Part shown: piece after piece, positions 28,915-42,356 of the stretch | Position numbering within the stretch: the first letter of the stretch is position 1 | How the letters are laid out: each line of letters starts with the position of its first letter | NCBI GenBank assembly: GCA_030696345.1 | Contig: JAUYSK010000018.1 | Coordinates: 1-64,000, forward strand | Origin: Azonexus sp. | GTDB taxonomy: Bacteria; Pseudomonadota; Gammaproteobacteria; Burkholderiales; Rhodocyclaceae | Length of the DNA stretch: 64,000 bases | Reading direction: 5' to 3' | Program-made: the position numbers and the translations under genes | Notes under the pieces: generated by a model | Databases searched by the model: none | Seen by the model: only the letters and a program-made list of their open reading frames with translations | Told to the model about the DNA's origin: nothing

Positions 28915-30252
28915 TTATCGGAATTTCTGCTTGAAGCTGACCGGGTCCAGCCCGTGTCGGGCCAGCAGCTTGTAGAACTCGGTACGGTTGCGCTGTGCCA
29001 CCCGAGCGGCTTGGGAAACGTTGCCGGCCGTACTCTGCAGCAGACGGATCAGATAATTGCGTTCAAATTCGCGGCGTGCGTCATCAAACGCCGCCAGGTC
29101 ATCTTCCTCGAAATCCCGCATGACGCGGCGGATGGCGGCTTCGGGAATGACCGGGGTGAGACTCAACTCAGCAACCTGTTCCAGCACATTCTTCAACTGT
29201 CGCACGTTTCCCGGCCAACGGCCTTCCGTCAGGGCTGCCAGCGACTCCGGGGCGAGGGTCAGGTTTTTTTCCGGACGAATGCGGGCGAGGAAATGCTTGG
29301 CCAGCAAGGGAATGTCTTCGCTGCGATCACTCAGGGGCGGGATGAGTAATGTCATGCCGCTGAGCAAGTAAAAAAGATCGCTGCGAAACGCGCCTTCAGC
29401 CACTGCGGTATCCAGCGGTCTGGGGCTTGAGGCAATTACCTGAACGTCGGGGACGCTACGTTGCTGCGACGCAGATTTCAGTCGCTGCAACGGGTCATGC
29501 GCCTGCATTTGGGCAAAGAGAACCGAAAACAAGCGGGCCTGCGCGATCGGTGACAACGCACCGATATCCTGCAGGTAAAGGATGCCGCCTGCAGCCTGGG
29601 CATAGGCGCCGTCCGGATTATCCTGGGTCAGCAGTTCTTCCTGCTCGCTGGCCGGGAAGTCAGTGCATGAAATGCTGACGAAAGCCTGGTCAACGCGCTG
29701 CCCGGCCTGCTGAATGGCGCGGGCCAGCGTGGCCTTGCCCGAGCCGCCGGGGCCGACAAACAGTGCTGTCCGGCTCTCCTCGCTGATTTTCAGCGCCTGC
29801 CGTAACAGGTCTTCCATGCGAACGCTGGCGGTGATCAGCTCCTTGCGCCATTGTGCCGAGCTTTGCGCCGGATCGAGCGCTGGTGAAAGACGGATCGCAT
29901 CGGCGACCCGGCGGATCAGTTCCTGGCCATCGAAAGGTTTGGTCAGAAAGCCGAAGACGCCGCGGCGGGTAGCTGATACCGCATCGGGAATCGTGCCGTG
30001 GGCGGTCAGGATGATGACCGGCATGGTGGGCGCCTCGACTTGCAGGTGATCGAACAGGGCCAGGCCATCCATTTCGCCCATCCGCAAATCGGTCAGAACC
30101 ATTTGCGGACGATTCTTCCGAAAACAGACCAGCGCCGCTTCGGCCGATTCGGCCTGGGTGACCTGATAGCCGGCCGAACTCAGGCGCAGGCCGATCAGGT
30201 GCAGCATGTCCAGATCGTCGTCGACAACGAGAACGTGCGCGCCGCTGGCCAT
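28915..30252 (-). CDS. glrR: Sigma-54-associated response regulator GlrR/QseF-like
   Basis: Receiver (VVDDDLDMLHLIGLRL), AAA+ central domain, C-terminal HTH (AGNVSQAARVAQRNRTEFYKLL); AAA+ GAFTGA loop looks degenerate (NPDGAYAQA). Confidence 0.85.
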   Translation of the reverse strand: MASGAHVLVVDDDLDMLHLIGLRLSSAGYQVTQAESAEAALVCFRKNRPQMVLTDLRMGEMDGLALFDHLQVEAPTMPVIILTAHGTIPDAVSATRRGVFGFLTKPFDGQELIRRVADAIRLSPALDPAQSSAQWRKELITASVRMEDLLRQALKISEESRTALFVGPGGSGKATLARAIQQAGQRVDQAFVSISCTDFPASEQEELLTQDNPDGAYAQAAGGILYLQDIGALSPIAQARLFSVLFAQMQAHDPLQRLKSASQQRSVPDVQVIASSPRPLDTAVAEGAFRSDLFYLLSGMTLLIPPLSDRSEDIPLLAKHFLARIRPEKNLTLAPESLAALTEGRWPGNVRQLKNVLEQVAELSLTPVIPEAAIRRVMRDFEEDDLAAFDDARREFERNYLIRLLQSTAGNVSQAARVAQRNRTEFYKLLARHGLDPVSFKQKFR

Positions 30253-30582
30253 TTACTTGGTTTTGTTCCGGTTGCGTAGTTCGCGGTCGATGGCCAGCAG
30301 TCCATCGAGTTTTTTCTGCAACTCTTCGTTCTGCTTCTGGTTTTCCTTGAGGGTGGTTTCAAGCCGGCGTTTGTCGGCCAGGCACTGGCGTTGTTTTTCG
30401 GCCATTTGCCGCTCCAGGTCGGCAATCTTCTGGACATCGGTAGTTGATCGAGCGGTGGCGACGGGCTCTGCCGATGTGTCCGGTGGAATCTCACGGTAAG
30501 TGGTGCATGCGGCGCCAGAAAGAACGACGGAAAGGCAGGTGGCGAGTCGTAACAGTAGTTTCGGCTTGTGTTGTTCAGGCAT
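30253..30582 (-). CDS. QseG-like small outer-membrane lipoprotein with coiled coil
   Basis: Lipobox-like LSGAAC, coiled coil KIADLERQMAEKQRQCLADKRRLETTLKENQKQNEELQ, between glrR and glrK. Confidence 0.65.
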   Translation of the reverse strand: MPEQHKPKLLLRLATCLSVVLSGAACTTYREIPPDTSAEPVATARSTTDVQKIADLERQMAEKQRQCLADKRRLETTLKENQKQNEELQKKLDGLLAIDRELRNRNKTK

Positions 30583-32035
30583 TTTTTTGAACTCTTAGGA
30601 ATGGAGCGCTTAAGGGCAGCGTGACGCGAAAATGCGCGCCTTCCGATGATGGTTGCAAGCTTAGTTCACCGCGATGGGCCAGCACGAATTCGCGGGCGAT
30701 CGCCAGGCCGAGGCCGATGCCCGCCACCTGCCGCGAGGCGGCACTGCGGTAGAAGGGTTCGAAGATCTGCGTTGCATCCTGTGCGGTAACGCCGGGGCCC
30801 TGATCCTGCACGTCAAGTGTGGCTTGGGTTGCGTCATGGGTCAGCGTTATGTCGATACGGCCGCCATCGGGCGAGAATTTGACGGCGTTTGACAGCAGGT
30901 TATGAATGATCGTCGTCAGCGCTTCGTGACCAGCAAGAATTTCGGTTTCGGCCAGGGCGCAGTTGAACTGGATGTGGCGTTCGCCGGCAATCAGCCGGCT
31001 GGTTTTCAGTACCTGTTCGATCAACTGGTCGTAGCGCAAGGTTTCAAAGCCGATGCGTTCAGCGGCGTGGCCGGCTTGCTGCAACCGCAGCAGGCCTTCG
31101 ATCAGGCTCTGCAGGCGGCGGGAATTGCTTTGCAGAATGCCGACGATATGGCGCTGGTCCGGGGTCAGCGGTCCCGGCACTTCTTCGGCCAGCAGCGAGG
31201 CGCCTTCATGCATCGCGGCCAGCGGCGTCTTCAGTTCATGCGAAACGTGGCGCAGCACCTGGGCCCGGCCTTCTTCCAGCGAGAGCAGGCGACGCCGCAG
31301 CCACTCCAGCCAGCGCCCAAGCCAGCGCAGGTCACCGGGGCCATCAAGTTCTATGCGCTGCTGCAGGTCGCCCTTGCCAAGGCGAATGAGGGCCTTTTCA
31401 AAGCGACCGATCAGGCGTGCCAGCAGCGTTCGCATCGCCCACAGGCAACACATGGCGATCAAGACTGCGACGCCTGCCGCAACGAAGAGGCGCGTACGAA
31501 GGGTGTCGGACTCCTTGAGGAATTGCTCCTGTTCGAGATGGAGGATGGCGTCGGCTTCATCGAGCGTCTTTTCCGATCGCACTTTTATGTCATCGATGAC
31601 GGCTTTCAGGGGCTGGGCATTTCCGCTGTCCAGCAGGGTTGCGTAGGCTGAGTCCTCTGCAGCAGTCTGGGCGCGCAGCTCCGCCAGAAGTGCTTCTGGC
31701 AGTGGCGGCAGGCGCGAAAATTTATCAACATTGCCGCGCCATTCGGTACGAACCTGGGCGTAATCCTTGAGCGATTCCGCATCCTTCAGGACGTCATGTC
31801 GGCGCAGGCTGCGCTCCATGTGCAGCAGGTCTTCGGCCAGTTCGCCGCTCAGTCGCGAAGAGATCGAAACATGCTCGATGGCCGATCGATAGTGGCCGTT
31901 CAGTACCCCGAGGGCGATGAAAACATAAGTCGCAGCGACCAGCAACGGTGCGGCAAACAGGATGTGGCCGAAGGTAACGAGCTGCAGGAAAGAGCGCGGA
32001 TAGCGTTTCATGGTCGCCATCGTATGCCAGACCAC
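30575..32035 (-). CDS. glrK: Sensor histidine kinase GlrK/QseE-like
   Basis: Two TM, HAMP, HVSHELKTPLAAMHEGASLL, HATPase N/G boxes; likely true start near 32011. Confidence 0.88.
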   Translation of the reverse strand: MVWHTMATMKRYPRSFLQLVTFGHILFAAPLLVAATYVFIALGVLNGHYRSAIEHVSISSRLSGELAEDLLHMERSLRRHDVLKDAESLKDYAQVRTEWRGNVDKFSRLPPLPEALLAELRAQTAAEDSAYATLLDSGNAQPLKAVIDDIKVRSEKTLDEADAILHLEQEQFLKESDTLRTRLFVAAGVAVLIAMCCLWAMRTLLARLIGRFEKALIRLGKGDLQQRIELDGPGDLRWLGRWLEWLRRRLLSLEEGRAQVLRHVSHELKTPLAAMHEGASLLAEEVPGPLTPDQRHIVGILQSNSRRLQSLIEGLLRLQQAGHAAERIGFETLRYDQLIEQVLKTSRLIAGERHIQFNCALAETEILAGHEALTTIIHNLLSNAVKFSPDGGRIDITLTHDATQATLDVQDQGPGVTAQDATQIFEPFYRSAASRQVAGIGLGLAIAREFVLAHRGELSLQPSSEGAHFRVTLPLSAPFLRVQKNA

Positions 32036-32169: not shown

Positions 32170-32598
32170 ATGAATCGAAAAACAATGCGTTTGCGGGCCT
32201 TGCTATGGCTCCCGATCGCCCTGGCCAGCACCTTCGCTGTTGCTCAGACCACGCCAGCAGCGCCACCCGCGGGACGCCTGCTGGCTTCCAACTGTTTCCA
32301 GTGCCACGGCTATGACGGCAAATCGAGTATCGGCTTCGAGCGACTGTCAGGCGAATCGTCCTCGGAAATATACAAGGAGCTGGTCGAGATGCGGAGCAAG
32401 TCCAAGCCCGACATCATGGACGCTCACGCTCGTGGCTACACCGATGCGCAAGTCCGCTTGATTGCCGACTATTTGTCAAAACAGAAATCGACTTCCAGTA
32501 AGACAAATACCACTACCTCCACGACGTCGACGTCAGCTACCACCAGCACCACGAGTTCGACATCCGACAAAAAATCGACCAAGCACAAGGAGTCGTAA
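32170..32598 (+). CDS. Mono-haem c-type cytochrome (FccA-like) with Ser/Thr-rich C-terminal tail
   Basis: Signal peptide; NCFQCHGYDGKSS; tail KQKSTSSKTNTTTSTTSTSATTSTTSSTSDKKSTKHKES. Confidence 0.85.
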   Translation: MNRKTMRLRALLWLPIALASTFAVAQTTPAAPPAGRLLASNCFQCHGYDGKSSIGFERLSGESSSEIYKELVEMRSKSKPDIMDAHARGYTDAQVRLIADYLSKQKSTSSKTNTTTSTTSTSATTSTTSSTSDKKSTKHKES

Positions 32599-32600
32599 TC

Positions 32601-33905
32601 ATGAATCGTCGTGATTTTTTCCGTCTGGCCAGCATGGCCGGCGTCGGAGCCTCGATGGCCTCCCTGTCGGGCCTGGCTCGTGCAGCAACACCGGCCCAAC
32701 TGGGCACGGTCCCGACCAACATCGGCATCAATGGACGCGTTGTCGTCATTGGTGGCGGCATGGGTGGTGCAACCGTTGCCAAGTATCTGCGTCTCTGGGG
32801 CGGCACCGGTGTTTCGGTCACCCTGGTCGAGCGTGAGACTGCCTATTCGTCGAATATCCTCAGCAATCTGGTCCTCAACGGCCAGCGCACGATGACCTCG
32901 CTGCAGTTTGGCTACAGCAACCTTGCCACGCGTTATGGCGTGAAGCTGGTCAAGGGCGATGTCGTGGGCATCGACCAGGCTGGCCACAGTGTCGCGCTGG
33001 CTGATGGTAGCCGCTTGCCCTACGACCGTCTGGTGGTCGCCCCGGGTGTCGATTTCGACATCATCCCGGGTCTGGAGACTGCAGCCGCCCAAGCCAAGGT
33101 GCCGCATGCCTGGAAGGCCGGCCCGCAAACCACCCAGCTGCGCAACATGCTGCTCACCATGAAAGACAGCGAGCGCTTCGTCATGACCATCCCGGCCAAG
33201 CCCTATCGCTGCCCGCCAGGACCGTACGAGCGGGCCTGCGTTGTGGCTGACTGGCTGAAAAAGAACGGCCGCCCGAACGCCAAGGTCATCGTGCTTGACG
33301 CCAATCCGAGCATCACCGCCGAGCCACTCGCCTTCGGCAATGCCTTCAACGTTCTCTACAAGGGGATGGTCGAGTATTACCCGGGCGTCAGCATCAACAG
33401 TATCGACGCCAGCACCATGTCGCTTAATACCAGCCTGGGCAACATTTCCGGCAAGGTCATCAATGCCATTCCAGCCCATCGCGCCGGCAAGGTGATTGTC
33501 GACAACGCGCTGGCCAATGTCGGTGGACGCTGGGCCGGGGTCGATGTGCTGACCTATCAGTCCACCGCTGCCCCGGGCATTCACGTCATTGGTGATGCTT
33601 CGGCAACGACGCAGCCCAAGGCTGGCCATATCGCCAACCAGGAAGCCAAGATCTGTGCCGATGCCATCGTTCGCCTGCTCTCCGGTCGTAGTCCTGATCC
33701 GTCGCCGCTTACCAACTCGGCTTGCTATTCGCCGATCACGTCGGATACGGCGTCCTGGTTAAGTGCTGTCTTTGGCTACGATCAGGCCACGGGCACGATG
33801 CTGCCGGTGCCTGGCGCTACGGTTGAAGCGCCATCACGCTCGACTGACAACTACAAGGAAATGTTCAAGTGGTTTAACACCTTGATGGAAGACAGCTTCG
33901 CCTAA
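32601..33905 (+). CDS. Tat-exported FAD oxidoreductase, flavocytochrome c sulfide dehydrogenase flavoprotein family (FccB-like)
   Basis: MNRRDFFRLASMAGVGAS Tat signal; GRVVVIGGGMGGATVAKYLRLWG; GRWAGVDVLTYQSTAAPGIHVIGDAS. Confidence 0.85.
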   Translation: MNRRDFFRLASMAGVGASMASLSGLARAATPAQLGTVPTNIGINGRVVVIGGGMGGATVAKYLRLWGGTGVSVTLVERETAYSSNILSNLVLNGQRTMTSLQFGYSNLATRYGVKLVKGDVVGIDQAGHSVALADGSRLPYDRLVVAPGVDFDIIPGLETAAAQAKVPHAWKAGPQTTQLRNMLLTMKDSERFVMTIPAKPYRCPPGPYERACVVADWLKKNGRPNAKVIVLDANPSITAEPLAFGNAFNVLYKGMVEYYPGVSINSIDASTMSLNTSLGNISGKVINAIPAHRAGKVIVDNALANVGGRWAGVDVLTYQSTAAPGIHVIGDASATTQPKAGHIANQEAKICADAIVRLLSGRSPDPSPLTNSACYSPITSDTASWLSAVFGYDQATGTMLPVPGATVEAPSRSTDNYKEMFKWFNTLMEDSFA

Positions 33906-33933
33906 ATCAGGCTGGCCGGGTTCCTGGCTGCAT

Positions 33934-33952
33934 GCCGGGGCCCGGCTTTTTT
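33934..33952 (+). terminator. Intrinsic terminator between the FccB-like gene and gspG
   Basis: GCCGG-ggc-CCGGC-TTTTTT. Confidence 0.7.
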
Positions 33953-33964
33953 CAAGGAGGATCG

Positions 33965-34399
33965 ATGCTCTACAAACCTGAAATTTCAAGACTGGCCGCA
34001 GGCTTCACCCTGCTCGAACTGCTTGTCGTCGTCGCCATCATCGGCTTGTTGGCGGCCTACGTCGGCCCGCGCTACGTGGCGCAACTGAATAAATCGGAAA
34101 TGACAGCCGCCAGGACGCAGATCGAGGCGATCGCGCGGGCACTGGAATCCTACCGGCTCGACAACGGCAGCTATCCCTCGCCGGAAACCGGCCTGCGCGC
34201 CTTGCGCGACCGCCCCAGCAACCAGCCGCGCTGGAATGGTCCCTATTTGCAGAAAGATGTGCCCGTTGACCCGTGGGGCAACGCCTACGTCTATCGCCTG
34301 ACCAACGCTGCCAGCATTGGTCGTGACTTTGAACTGTTCTCGCTGGGCCGTGATGGTCGCCCCGGTGGCAATGGCGAAAACGCCGACATCCGGTTCTGA
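33965..34399 (+). CDS. gspG: Type II secretion major pseudopilin GspG-like
   Basis: GFTLLELLVVVAIIGLLAAYVGPRY; DPWGNAYVYR. Confidence 0.92.
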   Translation: MLYKPEISRLAAGFTLLELLVVVAIIGLLAAYVGPRYVAQLNKSEMTAARTQIEAIARALESYRLDNGSYPSPETGLRALRDRPSNQPRWNGPYLQKDVPVDPWGNAYVYRLTNAASIGRDFELFSLGRDGRPGGNGENADIRF

Positions 34400-34406
34400 G
34401 TCCCGC

Positions 34407-35618
34407 ATGAATTTCGCCATCCGAGCCATTGGTCCGAACGGTGTGGAAACCCTCCACATCGAAGCGGCCAGCCAGGAGGAAGCCTGTCGGCACCTCGCGG
34501 CTCGGGATTTTCGCCCGCTTTCGGTCAAGGCCGCCGACCAGCCGGCCTGGCAGCAATGGATTGCCCGCAGCGCCAGCCAGCCGGCGTTCGATCTGCCGCT
34601 GTTCAGTCAGGAACTGCTGGCCCTGCTGGAAGCCGGGCTGACACTGACCGAATCGCTGGCCGCCTTGCATGAAAAGGAACGCCGGCCCTCAGTCGCCAAT
34701 GTGCTGGCCGCCTTGCGCGGTCGACTGGCCGAAGGGCAACGTTTTGCAGCCGCACTGGCTGCCCAGCCAGAGATTTTTCCGCCACTTTATTGCGGCCTGA
34801 TGCGGGCGGCCGAACGCACGGCCAGCCTCGACAATTCGCTGGCCCGGTACATCGAATATCGCAGCCGTATCGATCAGGTCCGGCGCCATGTCACGCAGGC
34901 AATGATCTACCCCGCCATCCTCTGCGGCGTCGGGATGCTGGTCAGTCTTTTTCTGCTCGGTTACGTCGTGCCCAGCTTTTCCAGCGTCTATCAGAGTTCG
35001 GGCCGGGATATTCCGTTTGCCTCGCAACTGCTGCTGCAGTGGGGGCGTTTCGTTGCTGATAATGCCCGTACGCTGGGGGGGCTGGGCCTGTTCGTCGGCG
35101 CTGCCATGATCTGGCTTATCCGCAAACCGCAGTCTAGAAGAGCCTTGAGCGCCGGCCTGTCCGGCTTGCTGCTGCGCCTGCCGAAAATTGGCGAGCAATT
35201 GCGCACTTTTGAACTGGCCCGGCTCTATCTCGCTTTGGGCACGCTGCTCGAAGGCGGCCTGCCGATTTTGCCGGCCCTTGAACTCTGTGATGGCCTGGTT
35301 TCAGCCCGGACTCAATTAGCCCTGCAGCAGGCGGCCCGCCGCATCGGCGAGGGGCAGCCCGCCTCAAGCGCCTTTGAGGAAGCCGGTTTGTGCACCCCGG
35401 TTGCCCTGCGCCTGATGCGGGTCGGCGAACGTACTGGCCAGCAGGGCGACATGCTGGCCCGCGCCGCCCGTTTCCACGACGGCGAGATCGAGCGCTTCAT
35501 TGCCCGCTTCACGCGCAGCTTCGAGCCCTTGCTGATGGCCGCCATCGGCATCGTCATCGGGGGCATCGTCGTTCTGCTGTACATGCCGATTTTTGACCTT
35601 GCCGGGAGTTTTCAATGA
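34407..35618 (+). CDS. gspF: Type II secretion inner membrane protein GspF-like
   Basis: Duplicated T2SSF domains, EPLLMAAIGIVIGGIVVLLYMPIFDLAGSF. Confidence 0.92.
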   Translation: MNFAIRAIGPNGVETLHIEAASQEEACRHLAARDFRPLSVKAADQPAWQQWIARSASQPAFDLPLFSQELLALLEAGLTLTESLAALHEKERRPSVANVLAALRGRLAEGQRFAAALAAQPEIFPPLYCGLMRAAERTASLDNSLARYIEYRSRIDQVRRHVTQAMIYPAILCGVGMLVSLFLLGYVVPSFSSVYQSSGRDIPFASQLLLQWGRFVADNARTLGGLGLFVGAAMIWLIRKPQSRRALSAGLSGLLLRLPKIGEQLRTFELARLYLALGTLLEGGLPILPALELCDGLVSARTQLALQQAARRIGEGQPASSAFEEAGLCTPVALRLMRVGERTGQQGDMLARAARFHDGEIERFIARFTRSFEPLLMAAIGIVIGGIVVLLYMPIFDLAGSFQ

Positions 35619-37198
35619 CCGCCAGACTGCCTGTTGAAAGCCCGGCCGAGTGGGTCGGCGATTACCCGCCGGCAACGCTGCCCCAACTGCATCGCCTGAT
35701 CCCCGCTTTCGACCGTTTGCCGCTGGCCGATGCGCTGGCTCGGCAATGTGTGCTTTTTCGCGAGAATGCTACGGTGGACCGCCTTTTTGGGGTGATTTCC
35801 GACCCGCTCGATAGCAACCTGCAGCGCTGGGCCGAAGCCCGCGCCGATGGTCCGGTCATCTGGCACCTAGCCAGCGTCGATGATCTCGCCGCCTGGCTGA
35901 ACAAGCAGGCCGAGGGAACGCGGCTGCTGGCGCCTTCCGATGCGACGGAACACATACAGTCAGGTGACCAACGGGCCGAAAAGACCCTGTCGGTCACCCA
36001 GAGCAGTCAGCAGACCAGCCCGGTCGTTCGCCTGCTCAATGCAACGCTGCACGACGCGCTCCGCCTCGGGGCAAGCGATATTCACCTGGAGTCGAGCGGC
36101 GCCGGGCTGGATATTCGCTACCGCATCGACGGCGTGCTCGAACATATTCGCAGCGTCCGAGGTTCCGACGTTGCGCCGCAGGTTATTTCGCGGCTCAAGG
36201 TGCTGGCCGAACTGGATATTGCCGAAACCCGCATCCCGCAGGATGGCCGGCTGGCGGTGCGGCTCAATGAGGGTGCCCGGCGGATCGACCTGCGTGTTTC
36301 GATCATGCCCAGCATGCACGGCGAAGATGGCGTGCTACGTATCCTCGACAAGAGCCATCTGATGCAGGGCGACCAGGCCCTGACGCTGGAAGGCTTGGGT
36401 TTTGCCGGCAGCGACATACAAAAACTGCGCGATCTCGCGGCTGAGCCCTACGGCATGCTGTTGGCCAGCGGCCCGACCGGTAGTGGCAAGACCACCTCGC
36501 TCTATGCCGTGCTGTCGGAAATCCATGATGGCCGGGAAAAGATCATCACCATCGAAGATCCGGTCGAATACCAGTTGCCCGGCGTGCTGCAGATACCGGT
36601 CAACGAGAAAAAAGGCCTGAATTTCGCCCGTGGCCTGCGCTCCATCCTGCGCCATGACCCGGACACCATCATGGTCGGCGAAATCCGTGACCGCGAAACG
36701 GCCGAAATTGCCATCCAGTCGGCTCTCACCGGCCATCGCGTGCTATCGACGCTGCACGCCAACCACGTCTTCGATGTCTTCGGCCGCTTCAGCCACATGG
36801 GGATCGATTCCTATCTGCTGACTTCGGCGATCAGCGGCGTATTCGCCCAGCGCCTGGTGCGCAAGCTCTGCCCGGTCTGTGCCCGGGCGCATGTGCCGAC
36901 GCCGCAGCAGAAACATGAATTGAAAATTTCCGGCGACAGTTCGACCCACGGTTTCAAGCAGGCCGTCGGTTGCGAATCCTGTCGCGGTACCGGCTATCGG
37001 GGGCGCAGTGCCATTGTCGAGATCCTGGCCCTCGACGACGTGCTGCGTTCCCTGATAGCCCTGCGGGCCCCGATCAACGAAATTCGCACTGCCGCCCGTC
37101 AGCAGGGCGTGCGCAGCCTGCGCGAAGCGGCGCTCGATCTGGCGCAGCAAGGCCTGACCACACTCGACGAGGTGCGCCGTGTCACGGCCCGCCATTAA
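35615..37198 (+). CDS. gspE: Type II secretion ATPase GspE-like
   Basis: GPTGSGKTTSLYAVL, ASDIHLE, IITIEDPVEYQLPGVLQ, CPVC and CESCRGTGY zinc motif. Confidence 0.95.
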   Translation: MTARLPVESPAEWVGDYPPATLPQLHRLIPAFDRLPLADALARQCVLFRENATVDRLFGVISDPLDSNLQRWAEARADGPVIWHLASVDDLAAWLNKQAEGTRLLAPSDATEHIQSGDQRAEKTLSVTQSSQQTSPVVRLLNATLHDALRLGASDIHLESSGAGLDIRYRIDGVLEHIRSVRGSDVAPQVISRLKVLAELDIAETRIPQDGRLAVRLNEGARRIDLRVSIMPSMHGEDGVLRILDKSHLMQGDQALTLEGLGFAGSDIQKLRDLAAEPYGMLLASGPTGSGKTTSLYAVLSEIHDGREKIITIEDPVEYQLPGVLQIPVNEKKGLNFARGLRSILRHDPDTIMVGEIRDRETAEIAIQSALTGHRVLSTLHANHVFDVFGRFSHMGIDSYLLTSAISGVFAQRLVRKLCPVCARAHVPTPQQKHELKISGDSSTHGFKQAVGCESCRGTGYRGRSAIVEILALDDVLRSLIALRAPINEIRTAARQQGVRSLREAALDLAQQGLTTLDEVRRVTARH

Positions 37199-37940
37199 GG
37201 GCTGGGCCTTGCCCCGGCTGACCAAGATGCGCTGCCATCTTGATCTCGGGCGCGCCGCCCTTTCGCTGCAAATCGCCAGGGCGACCACCCGGCGCGCCCT
37301 GGCGATGCCGCTGAAGCCGTCGATTCCGGATGAGGCCACACTGGCCGCCTTGCTGTCTAACATTCAGTCGCTGTGCGCAGACCTTCCCGCCGGCGTGCAA
37401 CTGGACATCACGCTGAGCGACGCGCTGGCCCGCTGCTGGATCGTCGAACGCCCCGCCGGCCTGGCTTCGCCGGAGGAAATCGACGCCATGGCCTGCGATC
37501 AGATGGGGCAACTCTATGGCGATGCGCCGGCTGCCATCGCGCAATGGGCCATCCGGCTTGATACGGCACCCTTTGCCAGCCACTGGCCGGCCATCGCCTT
37601 GCCCAGAGCCTTGCTCGATTTGCTGACCGGCCTGGCCGGTGAGCGTGACTGGCAGATTGGCCGGGTCGAAACGCGGTTTGTTCGCAGCTTCAATGCTTTG
37701 CGCAGCAACCCGTTCAGCCGCGCGAAGTCAGCGATCTATTGCCTCGATACCGCCGATGGCCTGACCGTCGGCATTCGCCACGCCCAGCAATGGCAGGCGC
37801 TGCGCGCCCATCCGCCGCTGGCCATGATCGGGGCCGAATTGCCAACCTTGTTGCGGCGCGATTGTCGGGCCACCGGCTTGAAGCTTGAGGATTGCCAGGT
37901 GCATACCTTGCGCTGGCAGGATCGCGGGGCGTTGCAATGA
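37179..37940 (+). CDS. Hypothetical protein in secretion operon (positional PilM/GspL-N analogue)
   Basis: Overlaps gspE; position G-F-E-[this]-N-O-P-D; no strong motif visible. Confidence 0.5.
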   Translation: MSRPAIKGWALPRLTKMRCHLDLGRAALSLQIARATTRRALAMPLKPSIPDEATLAALLSNIQSLCADLPAGVQLDITLSDALARCWIVERPAGLASPEEIDAMACDQMGQLYGDAPAAIAQWAIRLDTAPFASHWPAIALPRALLDLLTGLAGERDWQIGRVETRFVRSFNALRSNPFSRAKSAIYCLDTADGLTVGIRHAQQWQALRAHPPLAMIGAELPTLLRRDCRATGLKLEDCQVHTLRWQDRGALQ

Positions 37941-38422
37941 CCCTGCGCATCGACTTCGCCCCACCCGCGCCGCGTCAGGCATCGCTTCGCCTTGGTGTCT
38001 GGAGCGTCATGCTGGCAGTCGTGCTTGGCACGGCGTGGATGATGAGCAGTGAAACTGAAGCTCGCTTGCCGAACAACCTGGCCGCGATGCCGGCCGAGGA
38101 AGAAATCCGGGCGATCAATCAGGCGATTGATGATCTGAACTTCCCGTGGCTGTCGGTCCTGACGCTGCTCGAAAGCAGTGTTGATGACAGCCTGCGTATC
38201 ACCCAGGTCGATGCCGAAGCGCGTGATGCGCGCCTGACGCTGCAGGGTGAGGCGCGCGACAGCCGGGCTGTGCTTGACCTGCCCGGGCGGCTGCGCAGTA
38301 ATCCGCTGGTGGCCGATGTCCGAGTGGTCAGCCAAAGCCCGGTAGCGGGTGAGGCAGGCGCTTTCCCGATTCGCTTTGCGCTCGAAGTGAGCCTGTCGCC
38401 GACCGAAGGTGGCCGCCCATGA
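37937..38422 (+). CDS. PilN-like membrane protein of secretion operon
   Basis: MTLRIDFAPP... single N-terminal TM, ferredoxin-like periplasmic part; 4-bp overlaps. Confidence 0.55.
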   Translation: MTLRIDFAPPAPRQASLRLGVWSVMLAVVLGTAWMMSSETEARLPNNLAAMPAEEEIRAINQAIDDLNFPWLSVLTLLESSVDDSLRITQVDAEARDARLTLQGEARDSRAVLDLPGRLRSNPLVADVRVVSQSPVAGEAGAFPIRFALEVSLSPTEGGRP

Positions 38423-38934
38423 AACCTTCAGTCAGTTACGGTCTGCTTGATCTCCGCCTGATATTTGCCCGTCAGCCGGTCCTCGCCATGCTGCTCGGCG
38501 CACTGGTCTTTCTCACTCTCTGGCAAGTGTTGTCGGCAGCCCCGGCAACGCCTCGCGCCATCGATCCGAACATGGACCCGGCGCGCATTCTGGCGGCACA
38601 GCGCAGCTTCCAGAGTGTGCTGATTCCGCCGGCCAGCCTGCCGGCAGCGCAGCAGGTCGTACTTGATGCGGCGGCCGCTCGCCAACTGGTCGTTGGCAGG
38701 GTGGACTACGCGCAGGAGGCAGATTCCGTCAGCGGTTTGACGCTGGCTACCATGCGCCTGCCGGTCAGCGGTCGCTATGCAGATATCCGGGCCTTTATCG
38801 ACAACGCCCTGGCGGCCCAGCCGGCGATGTCGATTCGCCACCTGAGCCTGCAGCGTGAAACTTCAGCCGAGACGGAATTTGTCGTCACGGCAACGCTGAC
38901 TGCCCAATTCCTTGTTGGAGGAGCCTTGCGATGA
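38419..38934 (+). CDS. PilO/GspM-like membrane protein of secretion operon
   Basis: Single TM, GRYADIRAFIDNALAAQPAMSIRHLSLQR typical of PilO/GspM C-terminal fold. Confidence 0.55.
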   Translation: MKPSVSYGLLDLRLIFARQPVLAMLLGALVFLTLWQVLSAAPATPRAIDPNMDPARILAAQRSFQSVLIPPASLPAAQQVVLDAAAARQLVVGRVDYAQEADSVSGLTLATMRLPVSGRYADIRAFIDNALAAQPAMSIRHLSLQRETSAETEFVVTATLTAQFLVGGALR

Positions 38935-39422
38935 AAACACCCCTGATGTTCCTGCTGGGTGCGGTAATGGCCATGAGCATGGTGCTGGTCAGTGGCCGTT
39001 CGGTCGTGGCCAGTCCCGGCTTGCCGATGCTGACCGAGGCGAGCGGGCAGGTGCCGATCCGCGCCTTGCGGCGCCTGGGCAAGGACGCCGAGGCGAGCAG
39101 TGCCGCCGTCCGCGATCCATTCGTTTCCCGTCCGCCGCCCGCCGTACTCAACGAGACGCCGGCCGTCGCCGCCCTGCCGGCAGCCGCTCCCGCCCGCCCG
39201 GCGTTTCCGGCCTTCCGGATTCTCGGCAAACAGGAGGATGACGAAGGCTGGGCGGTATTTGTCAGCTCGCAGGAAAAGCCCGACCTGGTCTGGGTCGTGC
39301 GCGAAGGCGAAGCGCTCGGCGAAAGTTTTCGCATCAGCAAACTGGCACCGCCGCTGCTCATCATCAAGAGCACTCGGAATGGCCAGAGCCGGACCTTCAA
39401 TATTGGAAAAGACGAAGAATGA
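38931..39422 (+). CDS. PilP/GspC-like periplasmic protein of secretion operon
   Basis: N-terminal TM/signal, proline-rich linker, small C-terminal domain (FRILGKQEDDEGWAVFV...); precedes secretin. Confidence 0.5.
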   Translation: MKTPLMFLLGAVMAMSMVLVSGRSVVASPGLPMLTEASGQVPIRALRRLGKDAEASSAAVRDPFVSRPPPAVLNETPAVAALPAAAPARPAFPAFRILGKQEDDEGWAVFVSSQEKPDLVWVVREGEALGESFRISKLAPPLLIIKSTRNGQSRTFNIGKDEE

Positions 39423-41029
39423 ACAACAATTCCGCAATGCACAGGATAGTACGAGGGACCAGCGCGCTATGCCTGATTGCCTTGCTGGCGGCTTGCGCCA
39501 CAACTTCACCGGCCTTGCGCGAAAGTCAGGATCTGTCGGCACAGGGCCGTCTGGACGAGGCACTGGTGCGCTTGGAGGGCGCGCTGCGGGAGAGTCCGAC
39601 CAACCCCGAGCTGCGACTGGCTGTGGCCCAGACGCGCGAAAAGCTGATGGCCCGTCAAGTCAGGCAGTTGCAGGAACAGGCGGCGCAGGACAGCAAGCGC
39701 GCGGTTGAGGAGGCGCCACGCCCGGTCGTCGCCGAAAAGCCCGCAGCGGTCGGGCTCGACAAGGTTATCAATGTTGATTTCAAGGGCGCGACGCTGAATC
39801 AGGTCTGCCAGGTGCTGTACCGCACGGCCGGCCTCAATTTCGTTTTCGACAAGGAGGTGACGACCGATCAGCCGATCAGCATCACTCTGCGCCGGACATC
39901 GGTGCGCGACGTGCTGGCGCTGATCCTGATGTCGCAGCAGCTTGAACAGCGCAACATCAATCCCGATACGGTAATGATTTACCCGAATACCCCGAACAAG
40001 GCCCGCGAATATCAATCGCTGTCGGTCCGCAGTTTCTATCTGACCAACATCGATGCCAAGACTGCTGCCGCCACGCTGCGCACCATCCTCAAGGCGCGCG
40101 ATCTGGTCAGCGATGAAAAGCAGAACGTCGTGGTCATGCGCGATACGCCCGAAGCCATCCGCATGGCCGAGAAGCTGCTGGCAGTGCACGACATGCCGGA
40201 GCCGGAAGTCATGCTCGAGGTTGAAGTGTTGGAGGTCAAACGCAGCCGCTTGCAGGAGCTTGGCCTGCTCTGGCCGAGTTCCCTGATGCTGACGCCATTG
40301 GCCTCGACGACAGGTGGTACGGTGACTTTGAAGGATTTGATCAACACGACTTCGGCCAGCCTGGCGGCGGCAGTGCCCACCTTCGGGATCAATGCCATGG
40401 CACAGTCCGGTGATACCAACCTGCTCGCCAATCCGCGTATCCGGACGCGCAACCGGGAAGTCGCCAAGATCATGATCGGCGAGCGGGTGCCCAATATCAC
40501 GACGACTTCGACGGCGACCGGCTTCGTTGCCGAATCGGTGCAGTACATCGATATTGGCCTGAAGCTCGATGTCCAGCCGACCATTTATCTCGACAACGAA
40601 GTCGCCATCCGGATTTCGCTGGAAGTCAGCAATATTGTCAGTCTGGTGCAAACCAAGTCGGGCACGCAGGCTTACCAGATAGGCACGCGAAATGCCTCGA
40701 CCGTGCTCCGCCTGAAGGATGGCGAGAATCAGGTGCTGGCTGGCCTGATCAGCGATGAAGAGCGTTCCAGCGGCAACAAGGTGCCTGGTCTGGGCGATTT
40801 GCCGGTCATTGGCCGCCTGTTCGGCACAAAACGGGACGAGGGCCAGAAGACTGAACTGGTGCTGTCGATCACGCCACGCCTGATTCGCAACAACAAGCGT
40901 CCGACTATTGATCAGACCGAATTCAGCATCGGACCGGAAACCGCGTTGCGGCCGACATCGCCCGACATGTCCTACTTCACGGAGGTGGTGCCGGCACCGA
41001 CGGCGCCGCCCGCTACTGTCCGCCAGTGA
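39419..41029 (+). CDS. gspD: Secretin GspD/PilQ family
   Basis: Lipobox LLAAC, STN/N0-like domain, VMLEVEVLEVKRSRLQELG, secretin core DTNLLANPRIRTRNREVAKIMIGERVP...VPGLGDLPVIGRLFGTK. Confidence 0.95.
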   Translation: MNNNSAMHRIVRGTSALCLIALLAACATTSPALRESQDLSAQGRLDEALVRLEGALRESPTNPELRLAVAQTREKLMARQVRQLQEQAAQDSKRAVEEAPRPVVAEKPAAVGLDKVINVDFKGATLNQVCQVLYRTAGLNFVFDKEVTTDQPISITLRRTSVRDVLALILMSQQLEQRNINPDTVMIYPNTPNKAREYQSLSVRSFYLTNIDAKTAAATLRTILKARDLVSDEKQNVVVMRDTPEAIRMAEKLLAVHDMPEPEVMLEVEVLEVKRSRLQELGLLWPSSLMLTPLASTTGGTVTLKDLINTTSASLAAAVPTFGINAMAQSGDTNLLANPRIRTRNREVAKIMIGERVPNITTTSTATGFVAESVQYIDIGLKLDVQPTIYLDNEVAIRISLEVSNIVSLVQTKSGTQAYQIGTRNASTVLRLKDGENQVLAGLISDEERSSGNKVPGLGDLPVIGRLFGTKRDEGQKTELVLSITPRLIRNNKRPTIDQTEFSIGPETALRPTSPDMSYFTEVVPAPTAPPATVRQ

Positions 41030-41499
41030 AACGTCGGGGCGGCTTCACGCTGATTGAGATGATGGTGACGCTGGCCATCATCGCGGTGCTGGCGACACTG
41101 GTGGTGCCGGTGGCGCAAATCGCCGTGCAGCGCAGCCGGGAGCAGGATTTGCGGCTTGCCCTGCGGGAAATTCGCAATGCCATCGACGCCTACAAGCGGG
41201 CCAGTGACGAAGGCCGGCTGCCGCGTGACAGCAATTCGAACGGCTACCCGGCGTCCTTGCAGGTACTGGTCGATGGTGTCGGTGACGACAAGCATCCCAA
41301 GCGTCAGAAAATCCGCTTTTTAAGGCGTCTACCGCGGGATCCGATGTTTCCTGATACGGCGGTCGATGCTGCGCAGACTTGGGGGCTGCGCAGCTACGCC
41401 AGCGAGGCCGGCGAGCCTCGCGAGGGCACCGATGTTTATGACGTCTATTCCCGCTCACTTCAGCTGGGCCTGAACAGCGTGCCCTACAAATCATGGTGA
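41026..41499 (+). CDS. Type II secretion pseudopilin
   Basis: RRGGFTLIEMMVTLAIIAVLATLVVP. Confidence 0.9.
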   Translation: MKRRGGFTLIEMMVTLAIIAVLATLVVPVAQIAVQRSREQDLRLALREIRNAIDAYKRASDEGRLPRDSNSNGYPASLQVLVDGVGDDKHPKRQKIRFLRRLPRDPMFPDTAVDAAQTWGLRSYASEAGEPREGTDVYDVYSRSLQLGLNSVPYKSW

Positions 41500-41867
41500 T
41501 GGCGCGCGGTTTTACGCTGATCGAATTGCTGGTCGTGCTGGCCATCGTCGCCTTGCTCGCGACGCTGGCCATGCCGCGCTACAGCCAGTATGTCGAACGC
41601 AATCGCGAGGCCGTGCTGGCAGAAAACCTGCGCCTGACCCGCGATGCGCTGGAGCAGTTTCAGGCCGACCGGGGGCGTTATCCGGAGTCGCTCGATGAAC
41701 TGGTTTCCCGGCGTTACCTGAAAAGTCTCCCCTTCGATCCCATCATCGAAAGCAATCGGCATTGGCAGGTCAGCGAGCCGCTGCCACCCGCCACGGGAAA
41801 GGTCGCCGACATCCACAGCGCAGCGCCCGGGCTGGCCCGCGACGGCCGGCGCTACGGCGCCTGGTAA
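41493..41867 (+). CDS. Type II secretion pseudopilin
   Basis: ARGFTLIELLVVLAIVALLATLAMPRYSQYVERNREAVLAENLR. Confidence 0.9.
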   Translation: MVMARGFTLIELLVVLAIVALLATLAMPRYSQYVERNREAVLAENLRLTRDALEQFQADRGRYPESLDELVSRRYLKSLPFDPIIESNRHWQVSEPLPPATGKVADIHSAAPGLARDGRRYGAW

Positions 41868-41870
41868 GCT

Positions 41871-42356
41871 ATGCGGCGAGAAGTCTCTCAACAACAGGGA
41901 ATGATTTATCTCGCCCTGCTGCTCTCCATCGCCCTGATCGGCGGGCTGTCGGCGGTTGGGCTGAAAGTGGCGCAAACGGTCCAGCTACGCAACGCTGAGG
42001 CGGATTTGCTGGGGATCGGCGTTGAGTTTCGCAACGCCTTGCAGTCCTATGCCGAGGTAACCCCAAACGGTCTGCCGCCGACGCCGGATTCGCTCAACGA
42101 ACTGCTCCGCGACCCGCGTTTTCCCGGCATGCGACGCCACCTTCGCCGCATCTATCATGATCCGCTCACCGGGAAAGCCGAGTGGGGCATCATTCGCGGG
42201 CCGGATCGCCGTATCGTCGGCATCCATAGCCTGAGTAGCGGTGCCTGCTTCAAGCTCGAGAATTTTCCGGCAGGTCTGGAATCCTTGAGTGGCACCACCC
42301 GGCACAGCGATTGGGTCTTTTCGCTGGCGAGCATTCCCGTGCCGGTCGCACGCTAA
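41871..42356 (+). CDS. Atypical pseudopilin-like protein (no Glu+5)
   Basis: REVSQQQGMIYLALLLSIALIGGLSAVGLKVAQTVQLRNAEADLLGIGVEFRNALQSY; downstream (D)PLTGKAEWGII. Confidence 0.7.
   Translation: MRREVSQQQGMIYLALLLSIALIGGLSAVGLKVAQTVQLRNAEADLLGIGVEFRNALQSYAEVTPNGLPPTPDSLNELLRDPRFPGMRRHLRRIYHDPLTGKAEWGIIRGPDRRIVGIHSLSSGACFKLENFPAGLESLSGTTRHSDWVFSLASIPVPVAR

Follow-up and report, generated by a model that had tools for sequence, protein, structure and literature searches.

Eleven open reading frames (ORFs) at positions 33965-42356 of the stretch studied here, a window of 64,000 nucleotides from an Azonexus sp. genome (assembly GCA_030696345.1, contig JAUYSK010000018.1, positions 1 to 64,000; contig C26 of this 3.96 Mb genome), appear to encode a complete exporter that resembles the type II secretion system (T2SS) and represents an unorthodox lineage of it, and would form one transcription unit with the genes of a twin-arginine-exported flavocytochrome c. 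We assign to this reading a probability of about 0.62. That the machine serves secretion rather than being a pilus is very likely; that the flavocytochrome (FccAB) is its cargo is a tentative proposal, to which we give less than even odds. The nearest named relatives of the source genome are Dechloromonas and other Azonexaceae/Rhodocyclales.

Gene order and linkage

The eleven genes lie on the forward strand in the order gspG-gspF-gspE-M-N-O-P-gspD-p1-p2-p3 (Table 1; the PilMNOP names of the four small genes are retained as a label only), with overlaps of 4-20 bp, mostly of 4 bases, at most junctions, and the tightly packed run described in the first-pass annotation is thus real, all its ORFs being present on that strand. 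About 60 named betaproteobacterial loci share this order, with all genes on one strand, so that it cannot be ascribed to chance, and it is kept in Rhodocyclales, Oxalobacteraceae, Comamonadaceae, Burkholderiaceae and Sulfuricella. The succession of gspG-F-E, four small genes, gspD and three pseudopilin genes that characterises an unorthodox T2SS was found in loci L050 (Ralstonia), L055 (Cupriavidus), L119 (the CH34 megaplasmid) and about 60 further loci. Judged from its sequences, the machine belongs to this unorthodox lineage of Ralstonia and Cupriavidus. Two unorthodox T2SSs with seven core genes each have been reported in Ralstonia solanacearum by Li et al. 2016 (PMC5080846; PMC6428702), one of them spanning about 10 kb and having gspE and gspD separated by four hypothetical genes (PMC5080846), and a 'smaller gsp cluster', Rmet_4704-4713, in Cupriavidus metallidurans CH34 (PMC2864759). 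Since these papers describe seven gsp-type and four hypothetical genes, the novelty that had been suggested for the gene order is largely lost. The new element is the linkage of the machine to a cytC-fccB pair, and no report of this pair at the head of the operon in the Rhodocyclales clade was found in the literature.

We propose that the transcription unit begins at position 32170, with cytC and the gene of an FccB-type flavoprotein as part of it. Twelve Rhodocyclales loci extend far enough upstream to be read, and in all of them cytC-fccB lies directly upstream of gspG on the same strand, accompanied by a divergent lipoprotein gene and two-component system. These loci come from several genera, their secretins being 54-100% identical, and in four of the relatives (L044, L045, L046 and L048) the ATG of gspG overlaps the stop codon of fccB (ATGA). 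A secretin of 57% identity or more is present in eight of 200 family genomes, and in seven of these eight an FccB of 68% identity or more lies about 7 kb from it.

FccB aligns over its length with solved structures (5n1t, 5.5e-82; 3vrd; 1fcd) and contains the FCSD_central and FCSD-flav_bind domains and the redox Cys pair that define the FCSD family; the Cys pair is present in all linked relatives and the RR motif in 11 of the 12 rows as read, and the cytochrome has one CxxCH motif in all relatives. A sulfide:cytochrome c oxidoreductase activity of FccAB is predicted from its family. In the alignment with 5n1t, Ser/Asn is found here at what we take to be the position of the Cys that links the flavin adenine dinucleotide. 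The pair differs from the FccAB proteins of 1fcd, 3vrd and 5n1t in its monoheme partner and in the joining of its genes to a secretion system. The Ser/Thr-rich tail of the window's cytochrome was considered as a surface signal and rejected, as it is not conserved. Genome G351 has two close secretin copies (79-80%; C77:12296-13897 and C158:2800-4371), only one of which is near FccB.

Components of the machine

GspG, GspF, GspE and GspD match the Pfam models T2SSG, T2SSF, T2SSE and Secretin at E values of 1e-36 to 1e-123, and the GspD, E, F and G expected of an orthodox T2SS are all present. GspG scores 154.5 bits, above the cut-off of 88.85 of the NCBIfam GspG model (TIGR01710). GspE, GspF and GspD all fall under the NCBIfam equivalog cut-offs; the best NCBIfam model for GspF is GspF, yet at 268 bits versus a cut-off of 424, and the nearest solved structures to GspE are those of GspE (4pht, 2.7e-101).

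As single sequences, M, O and P of the window gave no Pfam match, and they were therefore characterised by family-wide scans and structure models. The AlphaFold2 model of M, built from an alignment of 25 proteins (predicted local distance difference test 90, predicted template-modelling score 0.86), had as its best matches in a Foldseek search of the PDB PilM (2e-10) and the cytoplasmic domain of GspL/EpsL (1yf5, 2.5e-9; 4pht_X). Because its scores normalised by target length are higher for GspL chains (0.51-0.54) than for PilM (0.30-0.41), the modelled M is nearer to cytoplasmic GspL than to PilM in size and fold. N matches Pfam PilN over the gathering score (7.2e-5). M and N form a single ORF of 412-444 residues, the arrangement of GspL, in two metagenome-assembled genomes (L038:7715-8950 and L040:7757-8998), Ralstonia (L050:7430-8761) and Cupriavidus (L055:7498-8829), a fusion that apparently arose more than once. 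Of the 24 O proteins in the family, 14 match T2SSM_b, at best with 1.1e-5, and 5 match PilO. In the P model, a single N-terminal helix, with no lipobox, precedes a C-terminal beta domain. The top Foldseek matches of that domain (PilP, GspB, the homology region (HR) of PulC, the HR of GspC, and LspC) form a consistent list, every E value being above 0.001. The locus would thus offer equivalents of GspL, GspM and GspC as a split GspL (one protein in some relatives only), a T2SSM_b-like O and an HR-like P.

Three pseudopilins accompany GspG, versus the four minor ones (GspH, I, J and K) of an orthodox T2SS. The N-terminus of p3 is prepilin-like and lacks Glu5 in all homologues read, and GspK likewise lacks this residue. 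By Pfam, the secretin is short, with a lipobox, TPR, N0, N1 and the secretin domain, and without N2/N3; 79 of 82 relatives show a lipobox pattern, and the remaining three have a Cys in that region. Secretins that are lipoproteins, HxcQ for instance, are independent of a pilotin, and by analogy a TPR-lipoprotein secretin may explain why no pilotin gene is found here. A C-terminal cohesin domain (1e-10 to 2e-12) occurs on secretins of Burkholderiales and Sulfuricella (L050:9950-12277, L052:9629-12067) and is absent from the window's copy. The first-pass annotation had considered the locus to lack GspL, GspM and GspK proper; given the fold of M and its GspL-like fusion with N, the T2SSM_b matches of O and the GspK-like p3, these components are mostly present in diverged form. 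Its other proposal, of a PilMNOP-like inner platform combined with T2SS-like pseudopilins and ATPase, is supported.

Lineage and distribution

Trees of GspE and GspF were built with references for orthodox T2SS (GspL-bearing loci), the mannose-sensitive haemagglutinin (MSHA) pilus (MshL loci) and the type IVa pilus (T4aP; PilB), all from Gammaproteobacteria sensu GTDB. In both trees a single clade, supported at 100/100, unites the window with all unorthodox systems, the Ralstonia and Cupriavidus copies included. T4aP and orthodox T2SS form clades of their own, as does MSHA save for the long-branched L013 of the source genome. The suggestion of a lineage-specific subtype is therefore borne out in this sample, and that of a resemblance to MSHA is not: neither the ATPase nor the platform protein groups with the MSHA clade, and the MshL model, whose cut-off is 250 bits, gives the secretin 109. 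An MSHA identity is rejected on these grounds, a T4aP identity on model scores and because both proteins lie outside the PilB/PilC clade, and membership of the orthodox T2SS clade because both lie in a separate one.

A secretin match at E <= 1e-60 was found in 109 of 300 genomes of the order. A strict restriction to Betaproteobacteria, as first suggested, was dropped in view of G542 and G546 (same class but outside the order, second sample) and of alphaproteobacterial plasmids. The latter, from Aliiroseovarius (A. crassostreae, L176:8195-17415), have the same architecture with a prepilin peptidase of their own: peptidase-F-E, four hypothetical genes, secretin, pseudopilins and GspG. On a Paraburkholderia plasmid (L118:15732-24864), a second gspG, a lytic transglycosylase gene and a run of large hypothetical proteins stand beside the unorthodox T2SS; the first of these proteins has PKD-like domains, and the run is possible surface cargo.

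The source genome holds a second, rearranged unorthodox T2SS (C18:46824-52837 and C18:88150-91781; L174, L175, L115), whose halves are about 36 kb apart and enclose genes for a 3794-residue haemagglutinin-like protein, a TpsB-like partner and PEP-CTERM proteins. It also has two MshL-bearing (MSHA-like) loci (C11:126733 and C25:51258) and a T4aP ATPase at C16, with seven GspE/PilB-type ATPases in total. GspL (TIGR01709) had no match in this genome, and thus no orthodox T2SS was detected there that could do the job.

Mechanism, cargo and alternatives

In the mechanism that we propose, the GspE-type ATPase, coupled through the GspL-like M and N to the GspF platform, would add GspG subunits under a p1-p2-p3 tip, the prepilins being processed by a peptidase presumably encoded elsewhere, and the pseudopilus, as it grows, would work like a piston in the periplasm. 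The connection between platform and secretin ring would be made by the GspM-like O and by P with its GspC-like HR domain. Being a TPR-lipoprotein, the secretin probably reaches the outer membrane without a separate pilotin, and folded periplasmic cargo would be pushed out through its ring. FccAB is the prime candidate for such cargo because cytC-fccB stands at the head of the machine genes and because FccB, having a twin-arginine motif, would be folded in the periplasm, as fits a T2SS substrate. FccB and the monoheme cytochrome would then be placed on or outside the outer membrane as a flavocytochrome oxidising sulfide or sulfur compounds. Since the Ralstonia genomes, unorthodox T2SSs have been on record with neither a cargo nor a role assigned, and a conserved enzyme pair at the operon head, overlapping gspG by stop and start codons in some species, provides a concrete candidate in bacteria that can be cultivated. 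Export of the flavocytochrome would mean that these bacteria oxidise sulfide at the cell surface, in line with the secretion of a redox enzyme reported for the Xcm pathway of Pseudomonas putida.

Several observations weigh against this interpretation. The assignments of O and P are made at the level of family and fold, without strong single-sequence matches, and we know of no testable signal for T2SS cargo. No T2SS is found near the cytC-fccB pairs of L132-L135, which are about 56% identical, and five genomes of the family have an FccB 60-67% identical and no secretin over the threshold, which implies that FccAB does not always depend on the machine; genome G456 has a 59% identical secretin and no FccB. 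Elsewhere in the clade the neighbours are others (PEP-CTERM proteins), and FccAB would therefore not be the general cargo; one type of exporter may be used for different cargo. Moreover, the fccB-gspG hairpin of Azonexaceae is terminator-like, and transcription there may be attenuated.

It can also be the case that the T2SS-like exporter has another cargo and that FccAB stays in the periplasm, merely co-regulated with the machine, for example where the divergent two-component system relays one redox or sulfur signal to both. The standalone pairs make this a serious rival, which we hold possible, if short of probable; the Azonexaceae hairpin also speaks for it, and T2SS cargo is often encoded away from the machine genes. 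It is countered by the persistence of the adjacency in several genera whose secretins are 54-80% identical, and by the start/stop overlap in four species. A broader idea, that this distinct branch of the type IV filament superfamily consists of dedicated exporters with one cargo class per lineage, a surface flavocytochrome here and PEP-CTERM/exosortase-sorted proteins in Oxalobacteraceae, seems rather unlikely to us as yet.

Export of PEP-CTERM (exosortase-sorted) proteins is suggested by the neighbourhood in Oxalobacteraceae and of the second copy in the source genome. Of 44 Oxalobacteraceae loci, 31 have a PEP-CTERM gene at most 1.5 kb downstream of p3 in the same orientation; upstream of gspG, another is present in 28 of 42. 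Exosortase and secretin co-occur in 71 of the 300 genomes (odds ratio 7.05, p 4.7e-14, without phylogenetic correction; by family, 27/6/4/13 families, p 1.2e-4), against 38 genomes with the secretin and no exosortase and 40 with the reverse. FccAB-linked loci have no PEP-CTERM neighbours (0/11 and 0/12), and G284 has an FccAB-linked system and no exosortase. Such export is improbable as an explanation of the machine, and as the role of the window's own copy it is rejected, there being no PEP-CTERM neighbour and no exosortase in G284. In these Oxalobacteraceae loci (L067-L114), at the frequencies just given, PEP-CTERM genes directly flank the machine on both sides (e.g., L108:13392-13937 and L108:1286-1900), and ORFs for an S8-type peptidase and a nuclease-like protein recur upstream. 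This neighbourhood suggests a way in which exosortase-sorted proteins might cross the outer membrane, a problem posed as early as 2006 (PMC1569441). In the PEP-CTERM profile of Haft et al. 2006, a T2SS-E protein ranks as the 34th best match, and its homologues include RSp0148 and Daro_3223.

A surface filament, that is, a short type IV pilus-like fibre that FccAB may feed or decorate, is the least probable alternative, since, in spite of the PilMNO-like platform and the secretin without N2/N3, the major subunit is, by the curated cut-off, a GspG rather than a type IV pilin, the eleven genes include no PilT-type retraction ATPase, and the ATPase and platform protein lie outside the T4aP and MSHA clades.

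The fccB-gspG spacer and regulation

The distance between fccB and gspG in Azonexaceae is 52-65 bases in most cases and 153 in L037. Every spacer, in seven relatives besides the window, holds at the same place a hairpin of differing sequence (z -2.0 to -6.1). That of the window is terminator-like, but such patterns occur at about chance frequency in the region. The hairpin might tune the levels of enzyme versus machine. A sigma-54 promoter driven by the divergent regulator was rejected: no site was found upstream of cytC in 12 loci, the matches in the window are fewer than expected by chance, and the regulator lacks GAFTGA.

Table 1. Features of the exporter locus and its upstream neighbours
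Feature	Position	Strand	Evidence
Response regulator, NtrC-type AAA+ and Fis helix-turn-helix, without GAFTGA	28915..30252	-	Pfam; GAFTGA motif search; neighbour in 11/11 relatives with upstream sequence
Small lipoprotein between regulator and kinase genes	30253..30582	-	ORF list, Pfam, relatives' neighbourhoods
Sensor histidine kinase (HAMP, HisKA, HATPase_c)	30575..32035	-	Pfam; conserved neighbour
cytC, monoheme c-type cytochrome, FccA-like, first gene of proposed operon	32170..32598	+	Pfam Cytochrom_C
fccB, FccB-like flavocytochrome c sulfide dehydrogenase flavoprotein, twin-arginine motif	32601..33905	+	PDB matches, Pfam FCSD_central and FCSD-flav_bind
fccB-gspG spacer with terminator-like hairpin (33934-33946 plus T6)	33906..33964	+	
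gspG, major pseudopilin	33965..34399	+	T2SSG 5.4e-36; start codon preceded by AAGGAGG
gspF, inner-membrane platform protein	34407..35618	+	T2SSF 1e-43; tree
gspE, assembly ATPase	35615..37198	+	T2SSE 5.8e-123; tree
M, putative cytoplasmic actin-like GspL/PilM domain	37179..37940	+	AlphaFold2 model and Foldseek
N, PilN-like, putative periplasmic half of split GspL	37937..38422	+	Pfam PilN 7.2e-5
O, GspM (subtype b)/PilO-like	38419..38934	+	Family-level Pfam matches
P, bitopic GspC/PilP-like, HR-like beta domain	38931..39422	+	Model, Foldseek; DPF motif and conserved core
D (gspD), secretin: lipobox LAAC (Cys26), TPR, N0, N1, secretin domain	39419..41029	+	Pfam
p1, pseudopilin with Glu5	41026..41499	+	N_methyl 2.4e-9; GspG model 51 bits
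p2, pseudopilin with Glu5	41493..41867	+	N_methyl 5.9e-7
p3, GspK-like tip pseudopilin without Glu5 (G|MIYLALLL)	41871..42356	+	Homologues G|FTYLxLL

Comparison with known systems

No functional study of the unorthodox T2SS lineage was found in our literature search, in which the nearest functional lead was the Xcm pathway, a precedent for the secretion of a redox enzyme that is likened here by description only. The Xcm ATPase is presumably PP3483, which we use as a lead only. In P. putida GB-1, a 'Novel Gsp-related pathway' was reportedly needed for secretion of a Mn-oxidising factor (de Vrind et al. 2003, as cited in PMC4509608), and in Table 2 of Haft et al. 2006 one T2SS-E query hits PP3483, a P. 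putida ATPase, together with RSp0148 and Daro_3223. Papers on Dechloromonas aromatica and Ramlibacter mention PulDEFG or gspDHEFG clusters, and a 'generic' class was retained for such systems by Denise et al. 2019.

The locus of Ralstonia sp. L050 has the exact order of the window and homologues of all its parts, and differs in the fusion of M and N, in the C-terminal cohesin domain of its secretin and in that no FccAB was found in it; the likeness to R. solanacearum rests on the published description, the locus read being that of this Ralstonia sp. The CH34 megaplasmid locus has the same 11-gene order and is more diverged, with a 40% identical secretin. The MSHA pilus belongs to the same superfamily and shares a PilMNOP-like platform and the lack of a peptidase of its own in the locus, but its ATPases and platform proteins form another clade, and the source genome holds separate MshL loci. 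With the orthodox T2SS (gspC-O) the machine shares GspD, E, F and G and, putatively, equivalents of GspC, L and M, and would be expected to work in the same way, although it forms a separate clade and has a split GspL, a compact secretin without N2/N3 and another gene order.

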